DNA of 64,000 nt from Halosimplex aquaticum (lineage in GTDB: Archaea; Halobacteriota; Halobacteria; Halobacteriales; Haloarculaceae), in NCBI RefSeq assembly GCF_028747785.1, contig NZ_CP118158.1, positions 3,906,001 to 3,970,000 on the forward strand, given 5' to 3'. The notes below the pieces were generated by a model. That model did no database searches, was not told the DNA's origin, and saw only the letters and a program-made list of their open reading frames with translations. The position numbers and the translations under genes were made by a program. Shown here piece by piece: positions 21,171 to 36,956 of this stretch (the stretch's first letter is position 1; each line of letters opens with the position of its first letter).

Positions 21171-22586
21171 TCAGATCGGCGCGAGGTCGGCGACGACGCT
21201 GCGAGTCGCCGGCGACAGTAGGAGGACGCCGACGTAGACGGCCCCGCCGAGCGACGCCACGACGGCCAGCGAGAGCACCGAGGTCCGCGGGAGCAGCGGG
21301 GCGACGAGCGCGACGGTCGCGTACGTCACGACCCCGCCGACGGCCTGGAGGCCGAGTTCCCGCGGGACTGCCAGCGCGTCGACGTGCGTCCTGAGCACCA
21401 GCGCGCCGAGCGCCAGCCAGGCGGACTGTGCGGCGACGGTCGCGACGACGACGCCGACCGGCCCCGTGGCGAAGAAGGCCGCGACGCCGAGGAGCACGTC
21501 CAGGGCGAAACAGACGACCGACAGCCGGACGACGACGTCCGGGCGGTCGAGCCCCTTGAGCGCCGCGGCGACCGGCCGTGACTGGCTGACCAGCAACTGG
21601 TAGACGGCGAGGCCGACGAGGAACGGCGCTGCGCCCGCGTACGCCGGGCCGTACAGCGCCAGGACGACCCGTTCCGGGGCGGCGGCGACCGCGGCGAGCA
21701 TCGGGACGGCGAGGACGGACGAGTGCGCGAGCGCGTCCCGGATCACGCCGGCGACGCGCTCGTCGCTCCGGTGGCGGTCGCTGACCTGCGCCATCACGCC
21801 GGCGGCGGTCGCGCCGACGACGAACAGCGCGGGCGAACTGAGGTCGCGGGCGACGGTGAACCGGCCGGTGACCGCCGAGGTCGCCAGCCAGCCGAGCAGG
21901 ACGAGGTTGACGCGGTTCCACGTCTGCACGGTGGCCCGCTCGACGACGGCGTATCGCGCGTACCGCCAGAGCGATCGGAGCGTCGCTCGCTCGGGGATCG
22001 CCGGCCGGGCGACTGCACGCAACGGGTACTGGATGGCGAGCAGCGTCCCCCCGGTGAGACCGGCGGCCATGCCGGCCGCGCCGCCCAGGAGCGCGACCCC
22101 TCCGGCCTGCAGCAACACCGTCTGGACTCGATGGAGGAGGTCGTGGAACGTCTCGCGGTCGACGCGCCCGTCGGCGGTCATGACCACCTGTAGCGACTCG
22201 AAGGCGCCGAGCGACGCGAACAGCAGGGCGAACCACAGCCCGGCGTGGGAGACGCCGGTGAAGGCGACGAGCCAGTCGTCGGCGACCGCTCCGAGGATTC
22301 CGCCGGCGACGGCGGCGAGGATCGCCGTCAGGACGGTGGCGCCGACGGCCTCACCGGGCGGAACGGCGCCGCCGCTGATGCGTTTTTTCGCCGCCTCGCC
22401 GACGCCCGACACGGACCGGTTGCAGATCTCGGCGAGCGCATAGAGGAGGGCGTACGATCCGAAGGCGTCGGGGCCGAGCCGGCGCGCGAACAGGACGCTG
22501 CCGGCGAGCCCGACCGCGCCGATCGCCGCCTGGTACAGCGCCGCTCGCCCGACTTCCTGCCGGAGGTGGGTGGCGTTCTCGTCCAT
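21171..22586 (-). CDS. Polysaccharide/oligosaccharide flippase-like membrane protein
   Basis: A 471-residue protein with about 12-14 hydrophobic helices, starting at the ATG at 22586. The N-terminal segment FARRLGPDAFGSYALLYAL is the hallmark of the MATE-like Wzx/RfbX flippase family, followed by ISGG and a central LLGWLAT helix. Such proteins move lipid-linked glycans across the membrane, for surface glycoprotein or polysaccharide assembly. No glycosyltransferase genes are nearby; it ends the oxidase gene block on the same strand, 80 nt after subunit III, so it may be a readthrough passenger. Confidence 0.85.
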   Translation of the reverse strand: MDENATHLRQEVGRAALYQAAIGAVGLAGSVLFARRLGPDAFGSYALLYALAEICNRSVSGVGEAAKKRISGGAVPPGEAVGATVLTAILAAVAGGILGAVADDWLVAFTGVSHAGLWFALLFASLGAFESLQVVMTADGRVDRETFHDLLHRVQTVLLQAGGVALLGGAAGMAAGLTGGTLLAIQYPLRAVARPAIPERATLRSLWRYARYAVVERATVQTWNRVNLVLLGWLATSAVTGRFTVARDLSSPALFVVGATAAGVMAQVSDRHRSDERVAGVIRDALAHSSVLAVPMLAAVAAAPERVVLALYGPAYAGAAPFLVGLAVYQLLVSQSRPVAAALKGLDRPDVVVRLSVVCFALDVLLGVAAFFATGPVGVVVATVAAQSAWLALGALVLRTHVDALAVPRELGLQAVGGVVTYATVALVAPLLPRTSVLSLAVVASLGGAVYVGVLLLSPATRSVVADLAPI

Positions 22587-22665
22587 GGTATCGGCGTGTG
22601 CGTGTCCGCTGGCGCCCGACCGACCCGCGTGCTGTCGCGGCGACGTCGCCGCCGTCGACCGGGAC

Positions 22666-23436
22666 TCACGGCCAGACGCGGACGCCGACGTACAGCGTCG
22701 CGACAAGCACCAGCCAGACGGCGTCGACGAAGTGCCAGTACCGGCCGACCGCCGCCGCGGCCTGTTCGCTCGCGGTTCCGCGGCGGCGGCCGACCGCGCG
22801 GAGCGCCGCCATCGCGCCGAGACCCCCCAGGACGTGCAGGCCGTGCAACCCGGTCAGCCCGTAGAACGCGGCGGCGTAGGCGCCGCTCGTCGGCGTGACG
22901 CCCGCCGCGTACAGCTCGTGGTACTCGCCGGCCTGGCCGACCAGGAAGAGGGCGCCCAGGCCGATGGTCACGGAGAGGTACCGATCGAATGCCCCGGTAC
23001 CGTCTCGCCGGGCCGCCGCGCGCGCCTCGTGGAGCGTGGCGCTACTGGCGAGGAGCACCAGCGTCGCGGCCAGCGTGGCCGGCGGCCTGATCGGCGGGAG
23101 CGGCCGGAGCGACCACGGCCCCGCCCAGAGGAACAGGAACGCGGCGAACGCGCAGCCGAACGTCGCCGCCTCGGTGACGAGGAACGCCGCGACGGCGACG
23201 TCGAGCGAGCGAGAGCGGGTCGGCTCGCCCGCTCCGGACAGCGTCCACCGGCAGACCCAGCCGCCGACGCCGACCGCGAGCGATCCGACGGCGAGCGCGG
23301 CCGCGACCGCGACGCTCCAGGGCGGGACCGCGTCGCCAAGCACGGCGAGCGCCGCCGTGGCGTACAGTCCGGCGACGCCCAGGGCCGTCGGGACCGGCCA
23401 GACGCTGGCCGCCTCGGCCGTCCCGTCGCCGGTCAT
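22666..23436 (-). CDS. coxC: Haem-copper oxidase subunit III
   Basis: A 256-residue protein with seven hydrophobic helices. Family marks are FLVTEAATFGCAF with the conserved Glu, GQAGEYHEL, FYGLTGLHGLHVLGG and YWHFVDAVWL. Subunit III stabilises the catalytic core and the proton uptake path. It overlaps the subunit II gene by 4 nt (ATGA), a coupled pair. The C-terminal VGVRVWP is a normal end. Confidence 0.94.
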   Translation of the reverse strand: MTGDGTAEAASVWPVPTALGVAGLYATAALAVLGDAVPPWSVAVAAALAVGSLAVGVGGWVCRWTLSGAGEPTRSRSLDVAVAAFLVTEAATFGCAFAAFLFLWAGPWSLRPLPPIRPPATLAATLVLLASSATLHEARAAARRDGTGAFDRYLSVTIGLGALFLVGQAGEYHELYAAGVTPTSGAYAAAFYGLTGLHGLHVLGGLGAMAALRAVGRRRGTASEQAAAAVGRYWHFVDAVWLVLVATLYVGVRVWP

Positions 23437-24206
23437 CAGCCGTTCGAGGAGCGCCCACGAACTGTTTCCGACGCCCGTGCGCGGCGCGTCCAGTTCTCGA
23501 ACCCGTCAGGCGAGCGGACCTCGGCGGTCGCGGTCATCTGCGAGTGGCCGACGCCGCAGAACTCGGTACACTGGACGCGGTACTCGCCGGTGCTCGTCGG
23601 CGTCGTCCGGACGTACGTGTACTGCCCGGGGAAGACGTCCTGTTTGAGCCCCAGCCCCGGGACGGAAAAGGAGTGAACCACGTCCCGCGAAGTCAATCGG
23701 ACAGTGACGGTCCGGTTCGTCGGCAGGACGAGCCTGTCGCTGGTGACGTTGGCCGCCGGGTATCGAAACGTCCAGTCCCACTGCGCTGCGGTCGCGTGGA
23801 CCACGACGACGCCGTCGTCGCCGGCGGCGCCCTCGCCGACCGCCGGCCCGACGGCGGCCGTCTGGAGCATCGCCTGGTAGGAGAGGACGCCGACGAGGAC
23901 GAACAGCGCCCCGACCGCGACGGTCCAGCCGACTTCGAGCCACCGCCGCTCGGTGACCGGGGCGGCCGGCCCGTCGCCGGTGAACCTGACGACCGCGTAG
24001 GCCAGGGCGCCCTCGAAGAGGATCGCGGCGGGGAGCCCGACCGCCAGCAGCGTCCGGTGGAGCGACCGGCGGAGCGCCTCCGTCGTCGAGTCGTAGGCGC
24101 CCCGCGTCGCCACGACCGCGAGGACGAGCCCCGACAGTCCGGCCGCGACGACCGTCGCGACCGCGATCGTTCGGGCCAGCCGATCGGCGTCGAGAGCGCC
24201 TCTCAT
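23436..24206 (-). CDS. coxB: Haem-copper oxidase subunit II (CuA)
   Basis: A 256-residue protein. Two to three N-terminal hydrophobic helices (about 10-35, 50-72, 93-115) anchor a periplasmic-side cupredoxin domain (about 130-235). All CuA ligands are present: His178, Cys213, Glu215, Cys217, His221 and Met224 in the QCTEFCGVGHSQM stretch. The aromatic entry site QWDWTFRYP is at 142-150. It takes electrons, likely from a halocyanin, and passes them to subunit I. Cytochrome c binding is not needed in halophiles. Confidence 0.96.
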   Translation of the reverse strand: MRGALDADRLARTIAVATVVAAGLSGLVLAVVATRGAYDSTTEALRRSLHRTLLAVGLPAAILFEGALAYAVVRFTGDGPAAPVTERRWLEVGWTVAVGALFVLVGVLSYQAMLQTAAVGPAVGEGAAGDDGVVVVHATAAQWDWTFRYPAANVTSDRLVLPTNRTVTVRLTSRDVVHSFSVPGLGLKQDVFPGQYTYVRTTPTSTGEYRVQCTEFCGVGHSQMTATAEVRSPDGFENWTRRARASETVRGRSSNG

Positions 24207-24291
24207 CTGTCGATGTCGTCGCGTCCGCTCGTCGCCGGTCGATCCGGTCGCGGTCCGGCCCGGCGGGAAGTCAGGCAGTTCGGGTCGAGCG

Positions 24292-25248
24292 TCACGCGTC
24301 GGCGCGCCACTCGTCGAGCATCGCCGAGTAGTGGTCGCGGATCGTGACGGCGCAGACGTCCGCGGCGTCGCTGATCTCGAGCTGGGTCAGCCCGGCCTCC
24401 TCGATGAGGCTCGCGGCGTACACCGCGGCGGCGGCCATTCCGGACGGGTGCTTGCCGACGTGGTAGTCGTCGCGTTTCGCCCGGTCCAGCAGGGACCGCG
24501 CCCGCCGCGTCACCGCGTCGCTCGCGTCGAGGTCCGAGGCGATGGACGCGACGTGGTCCGACGGGTCCGGCGGGCCGATCTCCAGCGAGAGCTCGCGGAT
24601 CGTCTCGCGGTACGCGCGGACGAACGACCGCCGGTCGACCCGGCTCGCCTCGGCGACGGTGTCGATCGTCAGCGGGAGGCCCTCGCTGCGGGCGGCCGCG
24701 TAGAGCGCCGCGCTCGCCGCCGCTTCGAGCGACCTGCCGCGCTGGACGCCGGCCTCGTGGGCGCGTCTGAACAGCACGCTGGCGACCTCGCGGACCGAGT
24801 CCGACAGGCCCACGGCAGAGGCCATCCGCTCCAGTTCGGAGAGGCCGAACTGGAGCGACCGCTCGGCCCCGTTGCGCGCCAGACAGCGGGCGTTCCAGGT
24901 CCGCAACCGCCGGATCCGGCTCAGTTTGCGCTGGGAGAGCCGGTTCCCGTTCGCGTCGCGCTCGCCGCCGTCGATGACCGTCGTCAGGCCCCGGTCGTGG
25001 AACCGGGGCGACGTCGGCGACCCGACGCGGCCGACGTCGGAGTCGTCCCCCGGGTCGGTCCGCGCCCGGTTGCTGACGAGGACGGTCTCGTCGACGACCA
25101 GCCCGCAGTCCCGACAGACGACTTCCCCCCGCGGTTCGTCCGTGCGGGTCGGGCCCCGGCACTCGGGGCAGGCGTCGCCGGCGCTGGTCGGTTCGTGCGT
25201 CGATTCGACTCGCTCGCGGCTCGTCGTGGATAGCTTTGTGGGTGACAT
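24292..25248 (-). CDS. tfb: Transcription initiation factor IIB, second copy inside the oxidase block
   Basis: A 318-residue TFB with zinc ribbon Cys27, Cys30, Cys45 and Cys48, a B-finger with SDVGRVGSP and two cyclin repeats. Against the TFB at 14572-15582 the first part differs: the WRAFN segment is replaced by a Thr/Asp-rich stretch and the ribbon is shorter. Haloarchaea use several TFBs to shape expression of gene sets. Its position 85 nt upstream of coxB and among the oxidase genes suggests that it steers this cluster or its response to metals or oxygen. That link is inferred. Confidence 0.95.
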   Translation of the reverse strand: MSPTKLSTTSRERVESTHEPTSAGDACPECRGPTRTDEPRGEVVCRDCGLVVDETVLVSNRARTDPGDDSDVGRVGSPTSPRFHDRGLTTVIDGGERDANGNRLSQRKLSRIRRLRTWNARCLARNGAERSLQFGLSELERMASAVGLSDSVREVASVLFRRAHEAGVQRGRSLEAAASAALYAAARSEGLPLTIDTVAEASRVDRRSFVRAYRETIRELSLEIGPPDPSDHVASIASDLDASDAVTRRARSLLDRAKRDDYHVGKHPSGMAAAAVYAASLIEEAGLTQLEISDAADVCAVTIRDHYSAMLDEWRADA

Positions 25249-25301
25249 AGTGCGGAGATCGCGCTCTCGCGTCGGCGCAGCTCGCGCGGATAGCGGGCGG
25301 C

Positions 25302-25616
25302 TCAGGGACCGTGCGCCGCCTTGTGTTCCTTGTACAGCACGCCGGTGAACAGGGCGAACGGGATCAGGCCGACCACGGTCAGCAACAGGCCGACCACCAG
25401 CAGCCCCGGGACGGACACGTGGACGAGGAAGTACGTGAGGACGCTGACGCCGGTGGCGATGAACGAGACGACGCTGACGATCACGAGGCCGAAGCTCAGC
25501 TTTCTGAGCCGCCAGGGCAGGTTCTCGGACTTGCGGAGCATCTGGATGAGGACGGCGATCGGCGGGATCGTCAGCGCGACGAGTTGCAACAGCGCGAGCG
25601 CGACGTCCAGGCTCAC
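25302..25616 (-). CDS. Small three-TM membrane protein in the oxidase block
   Basis: A 104-residue protein with three hydrophobic helices (about 5-25, 43-68, 70-92) and basic loops (RKSENLPWRLRK) that put the first loop on the cytosolic side. Its ATG overlaps the stop of the propeller gene upstream by 4 nt, so it is made together with that protein. It could be an extra oxidase subunit or the membrane anchor of the propeller; no family is recognised. Confidence 0.75.
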   Translation of the reverse strand: MSLDVALALLQLVALTIPPIAVLIQMLRKSENLPWRLRKLSFGLVIVSVVSFIATGVSVLTYFLVHVSVPGLLVVGLLLTVVGLIPFALFTGVLYKEHKAAHGP

Positions 25617-26704
25617 GCGTCGTCCCCCCGTTCGATGGCCGTTCCGTCGGCGCCGACCGCCACCGACGGGGAGCCGAGCGCGACCGCCCGCAGTTGCGCG
25701 CTGACCGGCGTCGGCGTCGGTCGCCAGCCGTAGCTGCCGCGACGCCGCTCGAAGGCGCTGCCGTTGGCGCCGACGGCGACCGTCCGCTCGCCGTCGTCGT
25801 CGATGCCGAGCAGGGCTACGTCACCGGCCTGGACCGGCGTCCAGTTCTCGCAGACGCGGTCGTAGCGGTAGACGAGCCCGCCGTCCCCGGCGACCAGCAC
25901 GCGGTCGCCGGAGGCCGTCACGTCGTGGAAGTTGACCTGCGCGTTCCTGATGCCGATCTCCCGCCACTCGGCGTCCTCCGGCCGCTCGTCGGCGGCGTCG
26001 TCGGCTCCGGCCTCCGCGTCGTTCGTTCCGTCGACGGCAGCGCCGTCGGTGTCGCCGTCAGCGCAGGGGTGGCCCTCGATCTCGTCCTCGGCCGACCGGT
26101 CCGGAGCGGTCGAGCGGGCCTCGCCGTCAGTCGCCGGATCGCCCGAGGGATCGTCACCGACGGACTCGACGGGCTTGGCGAACACGTTGCCGCTGGTGTC
26201 GATGGCGTACACCGTGTCGCCGCCGACGTCGAGGCCGGTGATCGTCGATCCGCTGCCCGGCTTGACGACGTCGCCGAAGCGCGGGCAGCCGTCGGGTCCG
26301 ATCGTCGCCGCGAGGACCTCTCCGGACCCGTTCGCGACGAGGAGTCGCTCGCTACCGCGTTCGCCGGTGACGGCGATCGCTTCCCACGTGCTCGTCTTCC
26401 CTCCGGGGGCGCTGTAGTCGTGTTTGCGCCTGTTCGCCGTGTCGTACATGCCGAGCGCGCCGCTGGACCCCGCGAACCAGACGCGCTCGCCGTCGGCCGT
26501 CGCGTCGACCGACGTGAGCACGTTCCGCTTGGTCGCGGGACCGACCGGCACGACGATGTGCCACGTCCCGTCGCGCCGTCCGAGGACGACGCCGTCCGTG
26601 CCGACGGCGTACGGGCCGTCGGCGGTCTGTGCGACGTCGCGGAGGTTCAGGTCGAGCGGGGTCTCCGCTTCGGTCCAGTCGCTGTCGTCTTGTGAGTCTG
26701 TCAT
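25613..26704 (-). CDS. Beta-propeller protein without signal peptide (oxidase-linked paralog 1)
   Basis: A 363-residue protein of repeating beta-strand units (SVDATADGERVWFAGSSGALGMYD-type blades). It is related over its length to the Tat lipoprotein at 32677-33669: shared blocks are GP-x-AVG, GSSGA/GSGGA, STW, GSERLLVANGSGE and VVKPGSG/VTKPTGG. Between blades 4 and 5 it has an acidic insert of about 60 residues (about 175-240) that the lipoprotein lacks. There is no signal peptide, so it should be cytosolic. It is coupled to the small membrane protein downstream by a 4-nt overlap. Function unknown; a role as a scaffold for oxidase assembly is only a guess. Confidence 0.85.
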   Translation of the reverse strand: MTDSQDDSDWTEAETPLDLNLRDVAQTADGPYAVGTDGVVLGRRDGTWHIVVPVGPATKRNVLTSVDATADGERVWFAGSSGALGMYDTANRRKHDYSAPGGKTSTWEAIAVTGERGSERLLVANGSGEVLAATIGPDGCPRFGDVVKPGSGSTITGLDVGGDTVYAIDTSGNVFAKPVESVGDDPSGDPATDGEARSTAPDRSAEDEIEGHPCADGDTDGAAVDGTNDAEAGADDAADERPEDAEWREIGIRNAQVNFHDVTASGDRVLVAGDGGLVYRYDRVCENWTPVQAGDVALLGIDDDGERTVAVGANGSAFERRRGSYGWRPTPTPVSAQLRAVALGSPSVAVGADGTAIERGDDA

Positions 26705-26809: not shown

Positions 26810-27157
26810 TCAACCGAGTCCGAGGGCGGCGAAGAAGGCGACCGTGAGGAGCCAGGAGACGCCGCCGAGCAGCAGTGCCGGCGGCCAGTCGCTCCCGCCC
26901 GCGTACTTCACGACGGCCGCCCAGGCGAGCGGGGAGGCGAACGGGCCGACAACCGGTATCCACCCGACCAGCAGGTCGACCAGACCGGCGACGAACACGC
27001 CCGTCACGGCGACGGTGACGGCGACCGGGAACGAGCCGACGCGGTCGAACCGCCCGGACCGTCCGGCCGCGTAGACCGCCGGCGCGACGAACAGCAGGGC
27101 TGCGACGAGCCCGCCGATCGCTCCCTCGACGGCAGCGGCGACGAGGTGGTGGAACAT
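26810..27157 (-). CDS. Four-TM membrane protein coupled to the PadR regulator
   Basis: A 115-residue protein starting at the ATG at 27157, which overlaps the PadR stop codon by one base (TGATG). Four hydrophobic helices fill nearly all of it (about 5-28, 38-62, 65-82, 92-113). Gly/Ala-rich helices without charged residues do not suggest a transporter of ions. PadR regulators often control an adjacent membrane gene, so this may be the direct target and partner. Confidence 0.7.
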   Translation of the reverse strand: MFHHLVAAAVEGAIGGLVAALLFVAPAVYAAGRSGRFDRVGSFPVAVTVAVTGVFVAGLVDLLVGWIPVVGPFASPLAWAAVVKYAGGSDWPPALLLGGVSWLLTVAFFAALGLG

Positions 27158-27579
27158 CACTGGAATCCCCCGTTCGTCGACTGCGACCGCGGACAGGCGC
27201 GCTCTCCCGAGAGACAGCAGATCGCCCACCGGAGATACGTCCGCATATCGGTTCTCGCCTCGTCGGTGAGGTGGTAGCTGTACGTCCGGCCGTCGATCGG
27301 GTGTTTCCGGAGGTAGCCCTCGTCGTGCAGGTGACGGAGGCTCCGGTACAGCGTCCCGTGGCTGGCCTCGCGCAGGTACTCCGCGTCCAGCACGGACTTG
27401 ATGTCGCTCCCGCTCGGGTCCGTCTCGGCGAGGTCGGCGACGACGAACAGGAGGTCTCGCTGGAACCCGGTCAGCAGGATGAACGGCTGCAACCGGTCGT
27501 GGTCCAGCGCGTCGCAACTGTCCGGGCCGAAGATGTCTGAGAGCGGCGCGTCCGTTCCAGGGAAGTTATCATTGGACAT
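27157..27579 (-). CDS. PadR-family winged-helix transcriptional regulator
   Basis: A 140-residue protein. A winged-helix domain (about 33-112) has the PadR pattern: TGFQRDLLFVVADL, GTLYRSLRHLHDEGYL and the wing YHLTDEAR. The C-terminal part has a Cys-Cys pair and a further Cys (AICCLSGERAC), unusual for PadR and able to bind metal or sense redox. The start codon lies within a palindrome (GACATaaATGTC at 27575-27586), a possible self-operator. It is 74 nt downstream of the coxA stop and may control coxA or the coupled membrane gene. Confidence 0.9.
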   Translation of the reverse strand: MSNDNFPGTDAPLSDIFGPDSCDALDHDRLQPFILLTGFQRDLLFVVADLAETDPSGSDIKSVLDAEYLREASHGTLYRSLRHLHDEGYLRKHPIDGRTYSYHLTDEARTDMRTYLRWAICCLSGERACPRSQSTNGGFQ

Positions 27580-27653: not shown

Positions 27654-29216
27654 TCAGGGATCGCGGTCCGACCACCCCTCCCACGCTCGGCCGAACCGGT
27701 CGTCGCGCGCTCGCCGTCGGATCTCCGAGTCGGCGGCGCGGCCGAGCAGCACCGATCTGGTCACGTTCCACACCCACACTACCTGTCCGATTCCCATGAG
27801 ATACGCGCCGAGCGTCGCGAACACCTGGAGTGGCGCCAGCGCCCCGGGGTAGGTCGCGCTCCGGCGCGGCAGCGCGAGCAGCCCGAGCGCGAGCAACAGC
27901 AGGAACGTCACCAGGGTTCCGACGGCGGTGAACCAGAAGTGCACCCGCGCGAGCCGCCGGTCGTAGCGCTTCCCGGTCGCCAGCGGGAACCAGTGGTACC
28001 CCGCCGCGAACAGCGCGAAGACGACCGTCCCGACGAGCACCAGGTGGAAGTGGCCGACGACGTAGTACGTCCCGTGGAACAGCCGGTCGACCGGGACGGC
28101 GGCGAGGAACACGCCCGTCACGCCGCCGAGGACGAAGTTGCCGAAGGCGCCCAGGCAGAACAGCATCGGCGGCGTCAGTTCGATGTCACCGCCCCACAGC
28201 GTCGCGAGCCAGTTGAACGCCTTGATCGCGCTCGGGGCGGCGATGGCGAGCGAGACGGCCATGAAACTCGCCTGCAACCGGGGGTCCATCCCGGTCGTGA
28301 ACATGTGGTGGGCCCACACGCCGAAGCTCAGGACGCCGATGGCCAGCGTCGAGTAGACGACGGCGCGGAACCCGAACAGCCGCCGGCCGGCGTAGACGGG
28401 GAGCACGTGGCTGACGATTCCCAGCGCCGGGAGCGCGAGGATGTACACCTCGGGATGACCGAAGAACCAGAAGAGGTGCTGCCAACGGACCGGCCCGCCC
28501 GACGAGACGGCGAAAAACGCCGTGCCGACCGACCTGTCGAGGAGCAACATCACGAGCGCGCTTCCGAGCACGGGGAACGCGAAGATCACGAGGCCGGCGG
28601 TCGTCAGCATCGACCAGGTGAACGCGTCGACGCGGTCCCAGCCGACCTCCCGCTCGACGAGGATCGTCACGAGCAGGTTGATCGCACTCAGGACCGTGCT
28701 CACGCCGCTCAGGTGGAGCCCGATCAGGAGCACGTCGAGACTGGCGCCGGCGGCAGTGCGGGCCAGCGGGACGTACAGCGTCCACCCGACGGCGGGCGGC
28801 GCCAGATCCGGGACGCCGAGCAGGTGGCCGACGACGCCGGCGCGCGCGAGGAGTAACGCGGGCGGCAACAGCCAGAACGCGGTTGCGTTGAGCCGGGGGA
28901 ACGCCAGGTCGTCGGCGCCGACCAGCGGCGGGACGACGACGTTCGCGAGCCCGAAGACGACCGGCGTGGCGAAGAAAAACAGCATCGTCAGCCCGTGAGT
29001 CGTGAAGAAAGCGTCGTAGGTCGTCGCCGACCACACCGCCTGTCCGGGCGTGAGGAGTTCCGTCCGGAGCGCCATCGCGTCGGCGGCGCCCCACAGCCCG
29101 GCGACCGCCCCGAACGCGAGGTAGAGCCGCCCCACGTCCGCGTGGTCGGTCGTCGTGAGCCAGTGACGCGCTCGGCTACCGATCGCCCGCACGCGGCCGT
29201 TCGTCCGGCGGGTCAC
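27654..29216 (-). CDS. coxA: Haem-copper oxidase subunit I (type A)
   Basis: A 520-residue catalytic subunit with 12 helices. All metal ligands are seen: low-spin haem His74 and His391, high-spin haem His389, CuB His254, His303 and His304, and the cross-linked Tyr258 of HPEVY. Glu256 of GHPEV and Asp103 of GADDLAFPR are the D-channel marks, so it is an A1-type proton-pumping oxidase that reduces O2 to water. The GTG start at 29216 is chosen because it overlaps the upstream stop by 4 nt (GTGA) and gives the normal N-terminus ending in TTTDHADVGRLYL. Confidence 0.97.
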   Translation of the reverse strand: MTRRTNGRVRAIGSRARHWLTTTDHADVGRLYLAFGAVAGLWGAADAMALRTELLTPGQAVWSATTYDAFFTTHGLTMLFFFATPVVFGLANVVVPPLVGADDLAFPRLNATAFWLLPPALLLARAGVVGHLLGVPDLAPPAVGWTLYVPLARTAAGASLDVLLIGLHLSGVSTVLSAINLLVTILVEREVGWDRVDAFTWSMLTTAGLVIFAFPVLGSALVMLLLDRSVGTAFFAVSSGGPVRWQHLFWFFGHPEVYILALPALGIVSHVLPVYAGRRLFGFRAVVYSTLAIGVLSFGVWAHHMFTTGMDPRLQASFMAVSLAIAAPSAIKAFNWLATLWGGDIELTPPMLFCLGAFGNFVLGGVTGVFLAAVPVDRLFHGTYYVVGHFHLVLVGTVVFALFAAGYHWFPLATGKRYDRRLARVHFWFTAVGTLVTFLLLLALGLLALPRRSATYPGALAPLQVFATLGAYLMGIGQVVWVWNVTRSVLLGRAADSEIRRRARDDRFGRAWEGWSDRDP

Positions 29217-30547
29217 AGCGCCCCGTCGGTCCGGCGGGCGTACCGCCAGAGCTCCCAGACGCCGACCGCGCCGACGGTCGTCGCCGCGCCGAACGCGACG
29301 GTCGGATCGAGCGTGTAGAGCACGCCGCCGACCAGCGGGCTCGGGGCGACCACGAGGGCGCGGGCGGTGCGGTACTGCTGGGGGTCGACGGCGGCGTCGC
29401 TGACGACGGCCTCGACCCGTTCGTCGCGGATCGCCGCGCCCGCACCGCGGACTCCGGCGACCGCGAACAGGGCGGCGACGACTCCCGCGACCGGCGGCAG
29501 ACCGACGAACAGCAGGGGGAACGCGGCCGCGAGCGCGGCGACGCCGACGAGGCGGGCCGCACCGTCGCGGGGCGCGTCGACCCGGCGTGCCGCGGCAGAC
29601 GCGGCGGTCGCGACGGCGAGTTCGGTGAGGACGAGCGCGCCGAACGTCGCGCTCGGGTTCAGCCGGACGCCGAAGAGCGTCGTCCGGAGCCCGAGGACGC
29701 TCGTCACGACGACGATGACGAACACGGACACCAGCGCGACCGAGACGTGGATCAGCGTCTCGCCCACGAGCAGCGACCGCGCGGCCCGCGGCACCGAGCG
29801 CACGGTCCGGACGAACGGCCGGACTCGCGGGACCGGCGGCTCCTCCGGAAGCGGCGGCGTGTCGACCGCGGTTTCGTCGTCGGCCGCGAAGAACCGCAGT
29901 GCCGAGACGACGATCCCGAGCGCGGCACCGAGCGCGAGCAGGGCCTGAAGCGCCGCGCCCAGCGTCCCGGCACCGACGATGAGACCAACCGCGAGTACGA
30001 CGCCGACGCCGGCGGCGGCCGCTTCGCGCCAGTCGTCGGCCGCCGGGCCGACGGCGAACCCGTCGGGTCGCGGTTCGACGGGCGCCGTCTCGCCCGTGAC
30101 CGCGGTGATCCCGAGCGGGACGAGACCGAGCAGGATCCACGCCCAGGCCGGGAGCCCCGACGCCGCCGCGAGCTCCGGCGCTACCAGCCAGACGAGGAGC
30201 CCGGTCGCGCCGAGGAGCGGCGCGGCGACCGACGGCTCGGGCGGCTCGGGCGCGCGGAGCGACGCGGCCATCGGGGCCAGCGCCATCGCGGCCGCGCCGA
30301 ACAGGCCGATGACGAGCGCGGAGCCGCCGAGGATGCCGAGGTACTCGGGCAGGTAGCGGCTCGCCGCGTAGACGAGGCCGTCGAACCCGAGCGCCGCGAC
30401 GAGCAGGCCCGGCGGCTCGCCGTCCCCGAGTCGGTTCCGGGCCCGCGCCGCGACCTCCTCGGCCGGCGAGTCGTCGACGGCCGCCGCGATCCGGTCGGCG
30501 ACTGAGCCCTGGTCGGTGCTGTCGGTCGGTTCGGTCGTGTCTGTCAT
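29213..30547 (-). CDS. MFS-like membrane protein between coxA and the metal permease
   Basis: A 444-residue protein with about 12 hydrophobic helices and a long charged N-terminus (1-55). Parts recall the major facilitator fold: RYLPEYLGILGGSALVIGLFGAA near the first helix pair and ARALVVAPSPLVGGVLY near the end, where MFS transporters have a PLIGG turn. Most other MFS signature residues are missing, and a cytosolic loop of about 40 residues splits it after helix 6. It overlaps both neighbours by 4 nt, so it is translated with subunit I. The MFS protein CcoA imports copper for another oxidase family; a similar role here is a hypothesis. Confidence 0.8.
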   Translation of the reverse strand: MTDTTEPTDSTDQGSVADRIAAAVDDSPAEEVAARARNRLGDGEPPGLLVAALGFDGLVYAASRYLPEYLGILGGSALVIGLFGAAAMALAPMAASLRAPEPPEPSVAAPLLGATGLLVWLVAPELAAASGLPAWAWILLGLVPLGITAVTGETAPVEPRPDGFAVGPAADDWREAAAAGVGVVLAVGLIVGAGTLGAALQALLALGAALGIVVSALRFFAADDETAVDTPPLPEEPPVPRVRPFVRTVRSVPRAARSLLVGETLIHVSVALVSVFVIVVVTSVLGLRTTLFGVRLNPSATFGALVLTELAVATAASAAARRVDAPRDGAARLVGVAALAAAFPLLFVGLPPVAGVVAALFAVAGVRGAGAAIRDERVEAVVSDAAVDPQQYRTARALVVAPSPLVGGVLYTLDPTVAFGAATTVGAVGVWELWRYARRTDGAL

Positions 30548-32163
30548 GATGTGGGGTCCGAGGAACGTTCGTCGGTGTCGGCGGCTGAATCGCCGTCGTC
30601 CGCCGTCTCCGCGGTCGAACCGGGAGCCGTCCCGCCGGTCTGGTCCGCGGTACTCGCGTCCGCGGCCGGTGCGGACCGACCGGTCTCCGCCGAATCGATC
30701 CGGTCGATCACGGCGCGGTTCGCCGCCGCGAGCGCCCGTTCGCCTCGTTTGCCGGCCGACGCGGCGGTCCCGACGGCCCGGACCGCTCTGTCCCGCCAGC
30801 GTCTCCGGTCGTCCGTCCGCTCGGAGCGGTGCTCGGCGACGGCGTCGACGGCGGTTCCGATGGCGGCCGCCACCACGGCGGCGCCGACGGCGAGGACGGC
30901 GCCCGTCAGGCGCACAGAGCGGCGGACGGACGAGTCGACGCGGTCCAGCGTCGCGGCCGTCCGCCGCCGGACGGCGTCGGTCCCGTACGTGACCGCGACC
31001 TGCACCGCGAACACCGGCGTCAGGAGGAGGTTCAGGGCGGTCGTGTAGCCCGACGGGACCGTGCCGCCGACCTCGCCGGCGGGCGGGACGAACCCGACGC
31101 CGGTCGCGACGTAGTGGACCGTCACGCCGGCGACGAGCGCGGCGACCGCCAGTGCCGCGGTCAGCGCGGCGGCCATCCGCGCGCCGTAGTACTGCCGGTA
31201 GATCCGGACGAGCGGCGGGATCAGCAGGTCGGCGTAGACGAACGAGAGCACCGCCCCGAAGGGCAGGCCGTTCTGCCAGAGGACGAGCGCGAAGGGGACG
31301 TTGCCGACCGAGCACATGAACGTCGCGACGCCGATGCCGATGGCGACCGCGGTCGCCAGCGTGACGCCGGCGAGGCCCGACCCGCCGGGGACCAGCGCGG
31401 TCCACCACGCGTCGGGGACGAACCCGCCGACGAGGCCCGCGATAACGAACCCGAGGGCCACGTCCCGCCAGACCATCTCCCAGTCTTTCATCGCGGCGCG
31501 GAAGGCGCTCTCCCAGCCGTCGCGGGTCGCCAGTCGGTCGCGCAGGCGGGCGTCGTCCGACCCGGTCTCGCGGGCCTCGAACACGCGGCGACAGCCGCCG
31601 CAGCAGAAGTGTTCGAGGCCGGTCGCCGTCTCCATCGAGACCGCGTCCTCGTCGGTCGGGTCGACGGTCACGTCGCAGGTGGGGCAGGCCGTCCGGTCGG
31701 TCGCGCGGACGTGCTCGCGGGCGCTCTCGACCCACTCGGCGGGGACGACGTGTCGGAACAGGAGCGCGAGGACGGCGACGGCGACGACGCCGCCGAGGTA
31801 CTCGCCGACGACGAACTGCCAGCCGAGCAGCACCCAGATGACGAGGCCGAGTTCGACCACGAGGTCGGTGCTGGCGAACATGAACGCGCCGAGGGTGGCG
31901 ACGCCGGAGCCGCCTTTCTTGAACAGCGTCTTCGTCGTGCCGACGGCGGAGTACGAACACGACGACGACGCCGCGCCGAGGAGCGCCCCGAGGCCGACCT
32001 CCCGCCAGCCGTCGCCACCGAGGGCGCCGGTCATCCGGTCCTCGCTGACGAACGCCTCGACGGCGCCCGAGAGCGTGAACCCGAGGACGAGCGCCCACCA
32101 GGTGTCCCAGGCCATCTCGGCGATCAACGCTGCCGCTCTGAGTGTGCTATCGAAGAGCCACAT
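30544..32163 (-). CDS. Metal permease (DUF318/SO_0444 copper-zinc efflux type) with internal Cys cluster
   Basis: A 539-residue integral membrane protein. Two half-repeats each carry a Cys motif in the membrane part, SSSCSYSA (Cys69) and MCSVGNVPFA, the mark of the permease family. A hydrophilic insert (about 155-200) holds CPTC (160-163) and CCGGC (187-191), a likely metal-binding domain. After the last helix (about 400) comes a cytosolic tail of about 135 residues rich in Ala, Asp and Thr that is not part of the family. Members export copper or zinc. Placed next to a CopZ-like gene and the oxidase, it may balance copper for the enzyme. Confidence 0.85.
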   Translation of the reverse strand: MWLFDSTLRAAALIAEMAWDTWWALVLGFTLSGAVEAFVSEDRMTGALGGDGWREVGLGALLGAASSSCSYSAVGTTKTLFKKGGSGVATLGAFMFASTDLVVELGLVIWVLLGWQFVVGEYLGGVVAVAVLALLFRHVVPAEWVESAREHVRATDRTACPTCDVTVDPTDEDAVSMETATGLEHFCCGGCRRVFEARETGSDDARLRDRLATRDGWESAFRAAMKDWEMVWRDVALGFVIAGLVGGFVPDAWWTALVPGGSGLAGVTLATAVAIGIGVATFMCSVGNVPFALVLWQNGLPFGAVLSFVYADLLIPPLVRIYRQYYGARMAAALTAALAVAALVAGVTVHYVATGVGFVPPAGEVGGTVPSGYTTALNLLLTPVFAVQVAVTYGTDAVRRRTAATLDRVDSSVRRSVRLTGAVLAVGAAVVAAAIGTAVDAVAEHRSERTDDRRRWRDRAVRAVGTAASAGKRGERALAAANRAVIDRIDSAETGRSAPAADASTADQTGGTAPGSTAETADDGDSAADTDERSSDPTS

Positions 32164-32400: not shown

Positions 32401-32613
32401 TCACTCGCCGGCGCCGGGGACGTCGAAACCGAGCCCGTCGATACACTCGCGCACCGCCGCGCGGTCTGACTCGGCGCACTCGACGGTGACGCAGCCGTCC
32501 TCGGCGTCAGCGGTGACCGACCGGACGCTCTCGAACGACGACACGGCCGAGCAGACCGTCTTCTCACAGCTCGGGCAGACCATACCGTCGACGTCGATGG
32601 TGAACTCGGGCAT
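32401..32613 (-). CDS. HMA-domain copper chaperone (CopZ-like)
   Basis: A 70-residue protein, a full HMA domain of the ferredoxin-like fold. The metal loop GMVCPSC gives Cys13 and Cys16, followed by the usual helix, strand and GFDVPG end. It carries copper(I) in the cytosol and would hand it to the permease or to oxidase assembly. The TATA-like CTTACAA on the minus strand near 32642-32648 is about 30 nt upstream and suggests that the permease/chaperone part of the block has its own promoter. Confidence 0.92.
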   Translation of the reverse strand: MPEFTIDVDGMVCPSCEKTVCSAVSSFESVRSVTADAEDGCVTVECAESDRAAVRECIDGLGFDVPGAGE

Positions 32614-32637
32614 CGCACTGCGAGGTACCCCGGTCGC

Positions 32638-32650: not shown

Positions 32651-32676
32651 CGAGACCGTCCCGCGCGCTGACCCGT

Positions 32677-33669
32677 TCAGCCGAACCGTTCGAGGATCGT
32701 CGCGCCCGCGCCGACGGCGACGTCCGCGTAGGAGTCGGTCGCCACCGCGCAGCCGTGCAGGGTGTTCGACGTGGGCGTCTCCGCTCGCTCCCACTGGTGG
32801 TTCGAGACCTCGTAGATCGCCCCGTCGACGCCGGCGGTCAGCGCGTTTCCGCCGCGCCGGTCGATGGCGTGGAGCGACCCGTCGGCGACGTCGGTGCGGA
32901 ACCAGCTTTGCCCGTCGTACCGGTAGCTGGTCCCGTCGTCGGTCACGACCTCGACCTGGTCGGGTGCGACCGCGACGAGGTCGCGCAGGCTCGTCTCGAC
33001 GCCGCGGATCCCGACGGTCTTCCACCCCGGCTCGTCGGGCTTCGTCGGATCGATGGGTCCGGTGTGGCCGTAGACGCCGCCGCCCGAGTCGGTGACGACC
33101 GTCGTCCGTCCGACGGCGTCGACGGCCGTCCCGCTCACGCCGCCGGTCGGCTTGGTCACCTCGCTCCAGCGGACGGTTCCCTCGCGGGCGCGACCGGCGA
33201 GCAACTCGCCGGAGCCGTTCAACAGCGCGATCCGCTCGGAACCCGCTCGCCCAGAGACGGCGACGTCCGTCCAGGTGCTCGTGTTCCCGGCGGGCCCCGA
33301 GAAGTCGATCATCTCGCCGCTGGCGGGGTCGTACGCGCCCGCGGCGCCGCCGGAGCCGGCGACCCAGAGCCGCCGGCCGTCGTCGGTCACGTCGACGCCG
33401 TACAGCCCGGTGGACTGGCCGGCCGGCCCGTCGGAGACGACCGTCTCCCACGTGTCGCTCCGCCGCGCGACGATGGCGCCGCTCTCGCCGACGGCGTGCG
33501 GGCCAGCGGTCGTGACGACCACGTCGCGGAGCGTGCCGTCGACCGGCGCCCCGACGTCGAGCCAGCCGTGTTTGACCGAGCGACCCCCGCAGCCGGCGAG
33601 CCCCGCCGCGAGCGCGCTCGCGCCACCGAGCAGGAACGCTCGCCGCGAAGAGAGATCCTTCGAAGGCAT
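32677..33669 (-). CDS. Tat-lipoprotein beta-propeller (oxidase-linked paralog 2)
   Basis: A 330-residue protein. The N-terminus has a twin-arginine signal (SSRRAFLLGG) followed by a lipobox LAGC with the modified Cys at about 27, so it should be exported folded and anchored by lipid outside the membrane. The mature part consists of repeating beta blades and is related to the protein at 25613-26704, but without the acidic insert. One stop-adjacent base separates it from the DUF2182 gene upstream. The pair thus offers an outer and an inner version of the same fold in one gene cluster. Confidence 0.88.
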   Translation of the reverse strand: MPSKDLSSRRAFLLGGASALAAGLAGCGGRSVKHGWLDVGAPVDGTLRDVVVTTAGPHAVGESGAIVARRSDTWETVVSDGPAGQSTGLYGVDVTDDGRRLWVAGSGGAAGAYDPASGEMIDFSGPAGNTSTWTDVAVSGRAGSERIALLNGSGELLAGRAREGTVRWSEVTKPTGGVSGTAVDAVGRTTVVTDSGGGVYGHTGPIDPTKPDEPGWKTVGIRGVETSLRDLVAVAPDQVEVVTDDGTSYRYDGQSWFRTDVADGSLHAIDRRGGNALTAGVDGAIYEVSNHQWERAETPTSNTLHGCAVATDSYADVAVGAGATILERFG

Positions 33670-33670
33670 C

Positions 33671-34474
33671 TCAGGGAATCAGCCCCGGGAACAGGACGAC
33701 TGCGATTCCGCCGACGCCGGCGGCGACGCCGACCGCCGTGGCGACCTCCCCGCGCCAGGGCGGGAGCCGCTCGGCCACCACGACGACGGTCAGCGCGAGC
33801 ATGACGGCGGCGTTCATCGACCCGGAGACGACCAGGAGCGCGAACAGCGGCCAGGTGGCCCGCACGCACTGGAGGCCGTGTTCGAGCCCGCGGCGCGCCC
33901 CCTCCCGGACCGACAGGCCCGAGTCGTCCAGATCCGGGACCCGGCAGCAGTTCCGGAGGGAGGCGCGTTTCAGTTCCGTCTGCTGGTAGCCGGCGACGAA
34001 CAGTCCGAGCGCCCCGACGAGTAGCGGCCCGTGCGCCGCCGCGAGTCCGCGGATGCTCACGAGGGTGTCGAGGGCCAGCGGGACGGTCCCCGTGGCCGTC
34101 CAGGCGAGGCTGTACGTCGCGAGCACGGCGACGATGCCGGCGTTCTCCGCGACTCCCGCGTCGTCGTGGCCGCGGACGTACTCCCGAACGAGCGGGAGCA
34201 TCGACGGGTACATCATCGCCGACATCATCGTCCCCCACATCGCGAGGTACGCGATGACCCCGGCGGCACCGTTCGACGTGCCCATCGCCTCGGGGACGCC
34301 CGGAGCGGTCATCGGCCCCGGCATCGGCGGGTGGGGGAGCCGCCCGCCGAGGACGACCGCCCAGAGGGCGACCGTGACGAGCGTCACCCCGACCGCGGCG
34401 GGCGGGACGCGCTCCGGGAGGACGGCGTCGGTGAGTCTGTCTCGATACTGGCGTAGCTGTTTCTCTGCTGTCAT
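33671..34474 (-). CDS. DUF2182 membrane protein (Met-rich, predicted metal-binding)
   Basis: A 267-residue protein with about six hydrophobic helices. The diagnostic DUF2182 stretch AMWGTMMSAMMYPSMLP (79-95) has six Met residues, and a Cys-Cys pair lies in LRNCCR (near 178) where the family keeps Cys. DUF2182 is described as a predicted metal-binding integral membrane protein (COG5486). Met-rich helices and a Cys pair fit copper(I). It is followed directly by the lipoprotein propeller. Confidence 0.85.
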   Translation of the reverse strand: MTAEKQLRQYRDRLTDAVLPERVPPAAVGVTLVTVALWAVVLGGRLPHPPMPGPMTAPGVPEAMGTSNGAAGVIAYLAMWGTMMSAMMYPSMLPLVREYVRGHDDAGVAENAGIVAVLATYSLAWTATGTVPLALDTLVSIRGLAAAHGPLLVGALGLFVAGYQQTELKRASLRNCCRVPDLDDSGLSVREGARRGLEHGLQCVRATWPLFALLVVSGSMNAAVMLALTVVVVAERLPPWRGEVATAVGVAAGVGGIAVVLFPGLIP

Positions 34475-34626
34475 GAGTGGTCGTGAACGGTTAGATCAGT
34501 CCAGTGGTGGATCGGTGGATCAAGTGGCGTGTCGGCCGGTTCGACGGGCCCTCGGCCTCGCCGCCGCTCAGCGGGGTGACGGCTCTCGGCCGTGTCACCG
34601 GAGCGCCCGCGCGAGCGAAAGCGGTG

Positions 34627-35787
34627 TCAGTCGCCGTGGATCGGCGGCGTCTCGCTCCGGTGGGTCGCGTAGTCCGGCGTCTCGCGCTCGGGCGTGAACG
34701 GCCCGGGCGCCGCGGTCCGCTTGGCGATGGTCGCGACTCTGAGGATGAACGACAGCAGGACCGCGAACGGCAGGAATATCGCGGCGAAGGCGGCGCTGAG
34801 CAGCCCGTCGAGCAGGATCGGGTGGCCGCCCAGCGGCTGCCCGTTCGCGAACGCCATGATGACGAGCGTCGCGACGACGAACGCGCCGACGCCGGTGTAC
34901 CCGATGAGCCGCGAGAGGTACGACAGCTCCTGGGTGAGGTACAGCGCCTTGAAGTACTGGCGCAGGACCGCCAGCGCGACGAACGACTCTTCGAGGTCCT
35001 CGAGCCTGTCCCGTGCGTCGACCGGCAGTTCGCCGCTGAACCGGTCGCGGATCCGGCGGGCGTCGTTGACGTTCCGCGAGTAGCTGTCGCCCATCATCGG
35101 CGGCAGCACCTCGATGAGCGGCTGGTGGCTCCCGTCGAGGTGCTCGCTGACGTGGGTCACCTGTTCGCGCACGACGGCGACGTACGCGTCGACGACGCCC
35201 CGGGCGTCGCCGTCGACTGTCTCGACCGACCGCTCCAGCGCGTCGGCCTGGTTCGCGACCACCTCGACCGCGAGGGCGAGGAACTTCGCGGGCTCCGTCG
35301 GACTGACCGACTCCGTCGGGTGGTCGTCCTCGAACTCGCGGCGGAAGGCGTCCACGTCCTGGACCTGCTGGCGGAACTGCTCGGGCGAACCGAACAGCCG
35401 AGACACGGTGAGCTGGTTGACGGCGATGACGATCGGCACGAACGAGAACAGCCCGGAGATGGCCGCGCCGAACGTCGTCGCGACGAACGACCCCTCGGCG
35501 ACGCCGACGGCGTCCACGAGGCTCAGCAGGAACGTCCCGCCGCCGACCCCGGCGACCATGAGCGCGACGAGGCGCCACCGGTCGCCTTCGAGGAGCAGCC
35601 AGCGGCGGGCGCGCGAGCGGTGTTCGGCGTCGGTGACGACCGAGGCGGCCACGGCGACGCCCGCCGCGCCGAGGCGGACGACCAGCCACAGGAACCGGAC
35701 CGCCCACAGGAACGCCCGGATCGACAGCCGTCGGTCGCCGCCGTCGGTCGCGCTCTCGGTCGAGTGCCGTTCGTCTTCGTCGGTCAT
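34627..35787 (-). CDS. Membrane protein of unknown function (paralog of the protein at 45896)
   Basis: A 386-residue protein with two N-terminal helices, a large soluble middle (about 130-290, helical), and two C-terminal helices (about 300-350). Shared signature with 45896-46960: VNQLTVSRLFG/LNQLVLSQEFG after helix 2, EARRIR/DARRIRDRF in the middle, and LSFILRVATIAKRT/LAYILRIASVTKRT with GPFT near the end. It overlaps the DUF389 gene by 4 nt. Function unknown; the long soluble part and conserved Arg/Lys end may contact a partner. Confidence 0.75.
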   Translation of the reverse strand: MTDEDERHSTESATDGGDRRLSIRAFLWAVRFLWLVVRLGAAGVAVAASVVTDAEHRSRARRWLLLEGDRWRLVALMVAGVGGGTFLLSLVDAVGVAEGSFVATTFGAAISGLFSFVPIVIAVNQLTVSRLFGSPEQFRQQVQDVDAFRREFEDDHPTESVSPTEPAKFLALAVEVVANQADALERSVETVDGDARGVVDAYVAVVREQVTHVSEHLDGSHQPLIEVLPPMMGDSYSRNVNDARRIRDRFSGELPVDARDRLEDLEESFVALAVLRQYFKALYLTQELSYLSRLIGYTGVGAFVVATLVIMAFANGQPLGGHPILLDGLLSAAFAAIFLPFAVLLSFILRVATIAKRTAAPGPFTPERETPDYATHRSETPPIHGD

Positions 35788-36956
35788 GGTATCACCGTCA
35801 GGATGGGGAGGTCCGCGCCGGAGACGTGCGCGAGGACGGTCGCCGCGATGGCGATGACCGTGATCAGTATCACGACGCGGGTCAGCATGACGCGGCGGGC
35901 GCGCCGGAGCGCTTCCAGGCTCTCGGGGTGGTAGCCGAGGTACCAGAGGCTGATGACGGCCGCGAACGTCACCGCGAAGAGGTTCATCACGACGACCGCG
36001 AGCGAGCCGACGACGATACCCGCCTCCAGCCAGGCGACGCCGACGCCGGCGATCCCGATCGGCGGGATGAGGGCGGCCGCGATCATGACGCCGACGAGGT
36101 CGATCGTCCCGCCGGTCGAGAGGCTCAGCGCGCCGGCGAATCCGGCGCCGAGCGCGACGACCAGCAACAGCGTGTTCGGCGCGGTGTGACTGCTGAGCCG
36201 GAGCAGTTCGCTTATCTCGAACGACGGGGAGACGAGCGAGCTGAACCGGATGACGGTAGCGAAGGCGATCGAACTGGCGAGCCCGCCGGCGCCGCCGATG
36301 AGCTGGTACTTGACGCTCTTCTCGAACAGCCGGTCGTCGTTGACGACGGTGCTGACCGCCGTCGCGACGATCGGACCGATGAGCGGCGCGATGACCATCG
36401 ACCCGATGAGGACGCCGATGGAGTTGAGCAACACGCCGGCGGTCGCGACGACGGCGCTTATCACCGTCAGCAGGACGTAGATGCTCAGGTCCGGGAGCAG
36501 GTCGGCGGTCTTGCCCTGCAGCTCAGTCCGGGAGATCCCCTGGTAGCCGAGCCCCTTCACCTCGTGGTACAGCTCGGCCTTCCCGTCGAAGCGGTCCGAG
36601 ATTATCACTTCGGGGTCGACGATGACCGTGTAGAGCCCGTCGTCGATACCCAGCGCCTCGAAGCGGTCCTGCACGTGCTCGACCGTCTCCGCCGGTAGCG
36701 GGAACCGGATGACCGCCGACCCGTCGCCGTCGGTCTGGTCCGAGACGACGTAGTCGAGGTCGAACTCCTCCAGCACCGTGACGACCTGCTCGTAGCTGTC
36801 GGGATCGAGTATCAGTACCTCGACCGCACGCAGGTCCTCTTCGACCACGAACGCCCGTTCGAGGTCGTCCTGTGCGTCCATCGAGAGCGTCCCACCGGCG
36901 CCGGGGTCGACTCCTCCCCCGGGCGGCGGGGCGCCCGTGTCGTTGTTATCTGCCAT
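35784..36956 (-). CDS. DUF389 / TIGR00341 family membrane protein
   Basis: A 390-residue protein, the most upstream gene of the block. The N-terminal soluble half (about 30-165) has the ferredoxin-like features of TIGR00341 proteins, and six to seven hydrophobic helices follow, with the family motifs SIGVLIGSMVIAPLIGPI and GVMIAAALIPPIG. Family function is unknown. It is coupled with the 34627 gene by an ATGA overlap. The two genes and their 45896 paralog suggest a membrane complex, but nothing ties them to the oxidase except order. Confidence 0.9.
   Translation of the reverse strand: MADNNDTGAPPPGGGVDPGAGGTLSMDAQDDLERAFVVEEDLRAVEVLILDPDSYEQVVTVLEEFDLDYVVSDQTDGDGSAVIRFPLPAETVEHVQDRFEALGIDDGLYTVIVDPEVIISDRFDGKAELYHEVKGLGYQGISRTELQGKTADLLPDLSIYVLLTVISAVVATAGVLLNSIGVLIGSMVIAPLIGPIVATAVSTVVNDDRLFEKSVKYQLIGGAGGLASSIAFATVIRFSSLVSPSFEISELLRLSSHTAPNTLLLVVALGAGFAGALSLSTGGTIDLVGVMIAAALIPPIGIAGVGVAWLEAGIVVGSLAVVVMNLFAVTFAAVISLWYLGYHPESLEALRRARRVMLTRVVILITVIAIAATVLAHVSGADLPILTVIP

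Follow-up and report, generated by a model that had tools for sequence, protein, structure and literature searches.

A recurrent haloarchaeal gene block linked to one clade of A-type haem-copper oxidase subunit I

In Halosimplex aquaticum, genes for subunits of a haem-copper oxidase lie in one run with genes for likely copper-handling proteins and for a transcription factor B (TFB), which raises the question of whether these genes form a unit and where such a unit would begin and end. The run is part of a stretch of 64,000 nucleotides (contig NZ_CP118158.1; G000:C1:3906001-3970000), referred to below as the window, in a genome of 5.16 Mb and three contigs. Comparison with other haloarchaea shows that a set of accessory genes is linked to the gene for oxidase subunit I (coxA) beyond chance and that this linkage is tied to one coxA clade, whereas TFB, cox2, cox3 and a flippase gene lie outside the conserved block. 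We regard it as probable, if by a modest measure, that window positions 37673-25302 are a conserved haloarchaeal module built around one clade of A-type subunit I, with its own copper-loading kit and, in most species, a CuA subunit that comes from elsewhere.

The first-pass annotation of this DNA describes sixteen consecutive genes on the minus strand between 36956 and 21171; these are present, and a second gene-calling run returned the same set with some starts shifted. That annotation treated the run as a single unit; what recurs in other genomes is its linked core, which starts one gene earlier (37673-37068). In order of transcription, the conserved block comprises the following genes, the last of which is followed by TFB, cox2, cox3 and the flippase gene.

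37068..37673, minus strand: zinc-ribbon-like protein of 201 aa with a C-terminal CxxC...CxxxC, without a Pfam match; first gene of the conserved block
35784..36956, minus strand: DUF389 / TIGR00341 membrane protein (PF04087, 103.8 bits; TIGR00341, 108.5 against a cut-off of 94.75)
34627..35787, minus strand: unk386, helical protein of 386 aa, read as a membrane protein; no Pfam family above cut-off
33671..34474, minus strand: Met-rich DUF2182 protein, a PpoB2-type putative copper chaperone (PF09948, 132.7 bits, cut-off 28.7)
32677..33669, minus strand: propA, propeller-type protein with a Tat-lipoprotein-like start; Tectonin match below cut-off only
32401..32613, minus strand: HMA metallochaperone of 70 aa with MVCPSC (PF00403, 35.7 bits)
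30544..32163, minus strand: ArsP_1-family permease with an inserted Cys-rich, TRASH-like segment (PF03773, 226.2 bits)
29213..30547, minus strand: MFS-fold transporter; no Pfam family, fold match of a structure model
27654..29216, minus strand: coxA, A-type haem-copper oxidase subunit I, GTG start (PF00115, 459 bits)
27157..27579, minus strand: PadR-type regulator (PF03551, 28.0 bits, cut-off 27)
26810..27157, minus strand: unk115, protein of 115 aa, present in 14/38 loci
25613..26704, minus strand: propB, second propeller (HVO_0234-like propeller, 26.6 bits, under the cut-off of 27)
25302..25616, minus strand: unk104, protein of 104 aa, found in 35/38 loci; last gene of the conserved block in the window

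Family-model matches confirm COX1, COX2, COX3, ArsP_1, HMA, PF09948 (which carries the Pfam name 'PpoB2, copper chaperone'), PadR and TFIIB. The many 4-nt overlaps noted then come down to four (DUF389/unk386, ArsP/MFS, MFS/coxA and propB/unk104); the other junctions, cox3/flippase aside, are 1-nt overlaps (PadR/unk115 and cox2/cox3) or gaps of 1-237 nt. Nor do the metal genes overlap subunit I directly, as had been supposed: it is the MFS gene that overlaps coxA, ArsP overlaps the MFS gene, and HMA stands 237 nt from ArsP.

A module locus was defined by coxA, ArsP, MFS and propA lying together. Linkage, not presence, was the criterion: homologues of the MFS protein, unk386 and the propeller occur in 360, 368 and 215 of 391 genomes, respectively, and were rejected as stand-alone markers for being so common. 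Searches of the 391 haloarchaeal genomes with the MFS protein and propA revealed broad paralogue families, with close pairs within a few kb in 11 other genomes. The search of this set yielded 38 module loci in 38 genomes, including the window, which is a lower bound. In 20-kb stretches from 16 relatives the genes, zinc-ribbon gene first and unk104 last, follow much the same order; some genes are absent, three stretches hold additional ones, and L050 has a divergent layout. Matches ranked by coxA added five module loci and those ranked by unk386 added 16; the latter form family group f3, with members including Natrialba, Natrinema, Halobiforma and Natronoglomus, and have the module arranged as two divergent operons. 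A scan of named genomes with the ArsP alignment found 71 loci, 19 of them with the module (11 already counted, 8 new), which brings the total to 46. Three module stretches are 13-19 kb long. Left out of the counts, as they neither hold the module nor serve as coxA controls, were loci found by propeller (L048, L054), MFS (L055, L056, and L075, a paralogue in the window genome) or unk386 matches (L114-L116).

Presence at a locus means any stretch of the six-frame translation matching the profile, a match that does not by itself prove an intact gene. By this measure coxA, ArsP, MFS and propA are found at 38/38 loci each, and at 46/46 in the enlarged set, which is true by definition since loci were chosen on that co-occurrence. 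Apart from these, unk386 is found at 37/38 (at the exception, L039, the locus meets a contig break and the gene is on another contig of the same genome, L112), DUF389 at 36/38, and the zinc-ribbon-like gene, PadR and unk104 at 35/38 each. The gene for propB is present at 19/38 loci and lies further downstream in longer Natrialbaceae stretches; HMA was counted anywhere in the stretch and is found, in varying places, at 15/38. DUF2182 was seen at 13/38 loci, where stretch ends cut genes off, and follows propB in the longer named Natrialbaceae loci, giving a count of at least 25/46. The linkage holds in at least seven family-level groups (f1, f2, f3, f4, f6, f8 and f9), it survives in rearranged layouts (ArsP-HMA-DUF2182 is shifted downstream in L057 and L058), and it is kept while the identity of module CoxAs to the window copy drops to 53-73%. 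Two of the named loci (L138, L187) are plasmid-borne.

How far this exceeds what surrounds any haloarchaeal coxA was judged against 54 other coxA loci from the same genome set, analysed with the same profiles; five of these fall short of 20 kb, at 10.8-15 kb. The profile search found propA, propB, ArsP, MFS, unk104, unk115, the zinc-ribbon gene and DUF2182 at 0/54 control loci, DUF389 at 3/54, HMA at 2/54, PadR at 1/54 and unk386, weakly, at 1/54. Oxidase and TFB genes are more frequent there: cox2 as a gene of its own at 15/54 (a coxA-cox2 fusion in L074 is left out), cox3 at 11/54 and TFB at 4/54. A count that ignores context points the same way. Of the best 51 coxA matches, 50 were fetched (the remaining one is a second copy in G147), and the module accompanies 19 and is absent from 31; one branch of the tree separates the 19 from the 31. 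A branch with support 96/99 has the first 22 module CoxAs on one side, and all 46 are parted from 52 controls by a single branch with a support of 96 in the SH-like approximate likelihood ratio test (SH-aLRT; quick method, midpoint rooting). Single placements are less secure, as several rows in the trees are long-branched or of unusual composition. The link between oxidase and copper genes claimed at first reading is supported and belongs to one coxA clade. Separation of oxidase and metal genes in most species, named at the time as evidence to the contrary, is what we see for the other sampled coxA genes but not for the module clade.

What kind of oxidase does this clade encode? The COX1 domain, the six His ligands and the helix-VI Tyr, our criterion for an A-type subunit I, are present in the window protein and in 46/46 module CoxAs. 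Residues were compared with 52 control CoxAs, not 54, because L076 and L096 hold only a distant coxA (38-39% identical). All 46 module proteins keep the His ligands of haem a, haem a3 and CuB, the helix-VI Tyr, the K-channel Lys and the Arg pair, in line with the initial expectation that the catalytic ligands are preserved. The D channel behaves differently. Its Asp is kept in 21/46 module CoxAs against 52/52 controls, being replaced in the other 25 by Glu (10), Arg (8), Gly (5), Gln (1) or Thr (1); its Asn is kept in 23/46 against 52/52, and the helix-VI Glu in 26/46 (otherwise Leu 18, Gln 1, Val 1) against 52/52. At the Mg site, His is found in 26/46 module CoxAs and 51/52 controls, and Asp in 6/46 and 42/52, with Gly in 40/46 and 9/52. 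The window CoxA has the D-channel Asp and Asn, the helix-VI Glu, the K-channel Lys and the Mg-site His, and Gly at the Mg-site Asp position.

The roles of these channel and site residues are those established in mitochondrial and bacterial oxidases, and the A2 oxidases are marked by a YS motif. All 18 CoxAs with Leu at the helix-VI Glu position come from f3 or named Natrialbaceae and carry FFAHPLVY, so that by these motifs they would be of neither the A1 (Glu) nor the A2 form. In the portion of PMC3084760 used here, which gives the list of D- and K-channel residues, A1 is defined by the D-channel Asp and Asn together with the helix-VI Glu, and A2 by a Tyr replacing this Glu. Variation of the two channels is in itself not new, since the part of PMC8239418 consulted already reports family A oxidases that vary in their K and D channels. 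As far as its sequence goes, the module enzyme is an A-type oxidase by its active site; its neighbourhood is unusual, and so is the eroded D channel of some clade members. The clade ranges from proteins with intact D-channel residues to proteins that lack them, a natural series in which the relation of the D channel to proton pumping could be probed.

The accessory proteins have conserved Cys as well. Seven Cys of ArsP (69, 160, 163, 187, 188, 191 and 284) are invariant in 21/21 sequences; a CxxC...CCxxC segment, with a weak TRASH match below cut-off, contains five of these. Cys176, 177 and 203 of DUF2182 are kept in 12/12 sequences, Cys13 and Cys16 of HMA in 11/11, and Cys139, 142, 160 and 164 of the zinc-ribbon-like protein in 17/17. 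The N-terminal region of propA, RRAFLLGG...AGC in translation, is presumably a twin-arginine translocation (Tat) lipoprotein pattern, and its lipobox Cys27 is found in 20/21 sequences. The structure model of unk386 (predicted local distance difference test score, pLDDT, 81) gave no PDB match at E<=0.001. The MFS-like character of the gene next to coxA is borne out at the level of the fold: its model (pLDDT 83) had 144 PDB matches at E<=0.001, the best with E 2e-6, and the 50 listed matches, with TM-scores of 0.40-0.62, are MFS proteins, judging by their titles.

The recurrence of the same genes beside coxA in many haloarchaea suggests a dedicated assembly and copper-supply kit; on the direction of copper flow, the contacts between partners, regulation and the electron donor we infer the following model. 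HMA, the Cys-rich ArsP-family permease and the PpoB2-type membrane chaperone would bring copper to the membrane or through it and hand it to the CuB site of the module CoxA during assembly in the membrane. The propeller and the uncharacterised module proteins might act as assembly or docking factors, and PadR and the zinc-ribbon protein might regulate the block. The CuA subunit would be supplied by a nearby or distant cox2, and in the window the genes TFB, cox2 and cox3 would complete the enzyme locally. Copper loading is favoured by the invariant Cys of ArsP, DUF2182 and HMA, by linkage that persists through rearrangement, and by two precedents. PpoB2 of Marinomonas is encoded in an operon with the tyrosinase PpoB1 and, according to the section of PMC2855505 at hand, is involved in specific copper transfer to it; SO_0444 of Shewanella is needed for growth under Zn or Cu stress and is described, in what we used of PMC3219624, as a proposed efflux protein. 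The module provides candidates for CuB loading in archaeal A-type oxidases, namely the ArsP-family Cys-rich permease, the PpoB2-type chaperone, the MFS protein and the propeller lipoprotein.

Several observations weigh against this model. As SO_0444 is a proposed efflux protein, the permease could export or detoxify metal rather than supply it. No pair of metal ligands is conserved in the MFS family, where at least half of 20 members share a single Met beyond the start and no His; neither Sco nor CtaG/Cox11 is among the Pfam matches of the window block. The module is absent from 52/71 ArsP loci (including six shorter than 10 kb), so that ArsP also occurs alone, while DUF2182 and HMA, at the frequencies given above, are not universal in the module. 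All 17 module genomes checked have further coxA genes; the module CoxA is therefore not their only oxidase. Finally, ArsP in L058 (5085-7472) and the MFS gene in L102 (8632-9844) are each spread over two overlapping frames, which may be a broken copy or a sequence error.

The main rival to copper loading is an island for copper or other metal stress, in which the cell would rid itself of surplus metal through the permease, HMA and DUF2182. CoxA would then consume O2 under the same stress with little or no proton pumping, and energy conservation would not be its main role. The weak resemblance of ArsP to SO_0444 fits such an island, as do antiporter- or ion-channel-like genes read from the sequences near some loci, and the loss of the D-channel Asp, Asn and helix-VI Glu in 25, 23 and 20 of 46 module CoxAs (0/52 controls for each) while catalytic residues are kept. 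The window CoxA, however, retains all of these residues together with the K-channel Lys, and 10 of the 25 Asp replacements are Glu, still an acid. Moreover, the Pfam matches of the window block include no P-type ATPase, and in the Marinomonas case, as far as the cited account goes, the PpoB2-type chaperone is a loading factor. On balance we judge the stress island rather unlikely.

Less probable still is that an ordinary oxidase with scattered subunit genes happens to stand beside unrelated membrane genes, the whole kept by shared ancestry or block transfer. It would agree with how commonly haloarchaeal coxA lacks a near cox2, given that only 15/54 control stretches have one, and with the patchy distribution of the module, found in 38/391 genomes as a lower bound and in two named copies on plasmids. 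Yet in at least seven family-level groups the linkage has outlasted changes of gene order and orientation, and its retention at 53-73% CoxA identity argues for selection. The first-pass annotation had envisaged a self-contained three-subunit oxidase with its copper supply and a dedicated TFB. All these parts are indeed adjacent in the window and, with a cox3 piece of 98 aa, in Halosimplex pelagicum, but TFB accompanies 2/46 loci, cox2 5/46 and cox3 2/46, and we consider that version highly improbable. Copper loading of one CoxA clade is the reading we retain.

The genes that follow the conserved block in the window are:

24292..25248, minus strand: TFB, a local addition (TFIIB repeats, 115.3 bits)
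23436..24206, minus strand: cox2, CuA-bearing subunit II, a local addition (PF00116, 70.2 bits; TIGR02866, 151.5 against 147.7)
22666..23436, minus strand: cox3, a local addition (PF00510, 66.6 bits)
21171..22706, minus strand: polysaccharide-flippase-type gene outside the module (PF13440, 34.9 bits)

The nearest named match to the window locus is that of Halosimplex pelagicum R2 (ArsP 81% and CoxA 78% identical), which also shares its flanks, ABC-transporter and 3-hydroxyacyl-CoA dehydrogenase genes as read from printed protein starts. TFB adjoins the module only in these two (69% identity; L137 in H. pelagicum), among 38 loci in the window alone; it looks like a local addition, and a dedicated initiation factor was rejected as a general feature. 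With cox2 at 3/38 loci and cox3 at 1/38 in the first set, a self-contained oxidase is not supported either. In the full set cox2 is found in the window, H. pelagicum (61% identical to the window copy), L102 (Halobiforma nitratireducens, 1495-2340), L107 (11681-12505) and L176 (Saliphagus infecundisoli, about 4427-5554). In the last three it adjoins propA rather than following unk104, probably a recruitment separate from that in the window; given the two different positions, cox2 was placed beside the module at least twice, in the Halosimplex lineage and in Natrialbaceae. The CuA motif CTEFCGVGHSQM is present in the window cox2 translation, and the pattern Cys...Cys...His..Met is kept in four inspected non-window module cox2. 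Besides the window, cox3 is represented by the 98-aa piece in H. pelagicum (L137 18874-19170), which matches the N-terminal part of the window protein and is a shrinking or degraded subunit III. A Pfam search for COX2 (PF00116) and COX3 covered 22 module genomes, those of the first set other than the 16 of f3: all 22 have a COX2 match somewhere. Outside G000, every COX2 or COX3 match is either on a different contig from the module coxA or separated from it by 25 kb or more, with the shortest distance in G039. The flippase gene overlaps cox3 by 41 nt only if the longest start is taken, and was rejected as a member, being found at 0/37 other loci and not in the H. pelagicum stretch. Neighbours in a single genome, such as TFB and cox3 here, can pass for parts of a module.

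A few further observations concern these neighbourhoods. In H. pelagicum, two short open reading frames take the place of the flippase gene that follows cox3 in the window (21171-22706). The window genome has four other places with a haem-copper oxidase subunit I (G000:C1:687499, 954306, 967878-969491 and 2056337), two of which (L072, L073) have no cox2 within the 20-kb stretch. A related, module-less coxA clade (L062, L064, L065, L070) has TFB at a distance of about 1-5 kb from coxA; the two genes share a strand in L064 and lie on opposite strands in the other three. Between coxA and PadR, L051, L052 and L053 carry genes for a CPA2-type antiporter, a small RCK-like protein and two other genes, named from sequence reading. 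A 7.3-kb contig labelled as a Bradymonadaceae metagenome-assembled genome (L141) encodes an ArsP permease with 55% identity, by misbinning or transfer.

Among titles and abstracts, a literature search did not find the module arrangement, which does not show its absence from print; the excerpt of PMC8305020 considered here describes the terminal oxidases of haloarchaea as highly diverse and makes no mention of it. With PpoB2 of Marinomonas mediterranea (COG5486/DUF2182) the module shares a Pfam family, well above cut-off, that adjoins a copper enzyme using O2; the partner there is a tyrosinase, and copper delivery in haloarchaea is putative. The window permease has a weak likeness to the NCBIfam model of the SO_0444 Cu/Zn transporter (NF033936, 74 bits, under the cut-off of 300), a distant relative in the ArsP superfamily, and differs from it in its Cys-rich TRASH-like segment and in being linked to coxA. 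Sco, Cox11/CtaG and CcoI are the copper-assembly genes of bacterial oxidases. Like them, the module genes would handle copper for an oxidase core, but none of these families is among the Pfam matches of the window block. The copper importer CcoA has MxxxM in transmembrane helix 7 and HxxxM in helix 8 and serves cbb3, not aa3, oxidases, as stated in the part of PMC5829832 consulted. The module resembles it in the MFS fold and the genetic link to a haem-copper oxidase; that oxidase is of the A type, not cbb3, and both motifs are absent from the window MFS protein (among 20 family members, MxxxM occurs in 1 and HxxxM in 0), by which criterion a CcoA-type importer was rejected. With the aa3-type (A1) oxidases the module enzyme shares the COX1 fold, the haem and CuB His, the helix-VI Tyr and the K-channel Lys and, in the window, the D-channel Asp, Asn and Glu and an adjoining CuA subunit II. 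It differs from them in that 41/46 module loci have no cox2, the Mg-site Asp is mostly Gly, the D channel is partly eroded, and an accessory set is linked. Tentatively, as a possibility that we would not yet call probable, the clade may be a distinct A-family branch with its own copper-loading module, which is losing the D channel and the Mg site between subunits I and II while its catalytic site and K channel stay intact, and is moving towards O2 reduction through the K channel only; its CuA subunit would be shared or exchangeable, and its assembly kit unlike both Sco/Cox11 and CcoA/CcoI.

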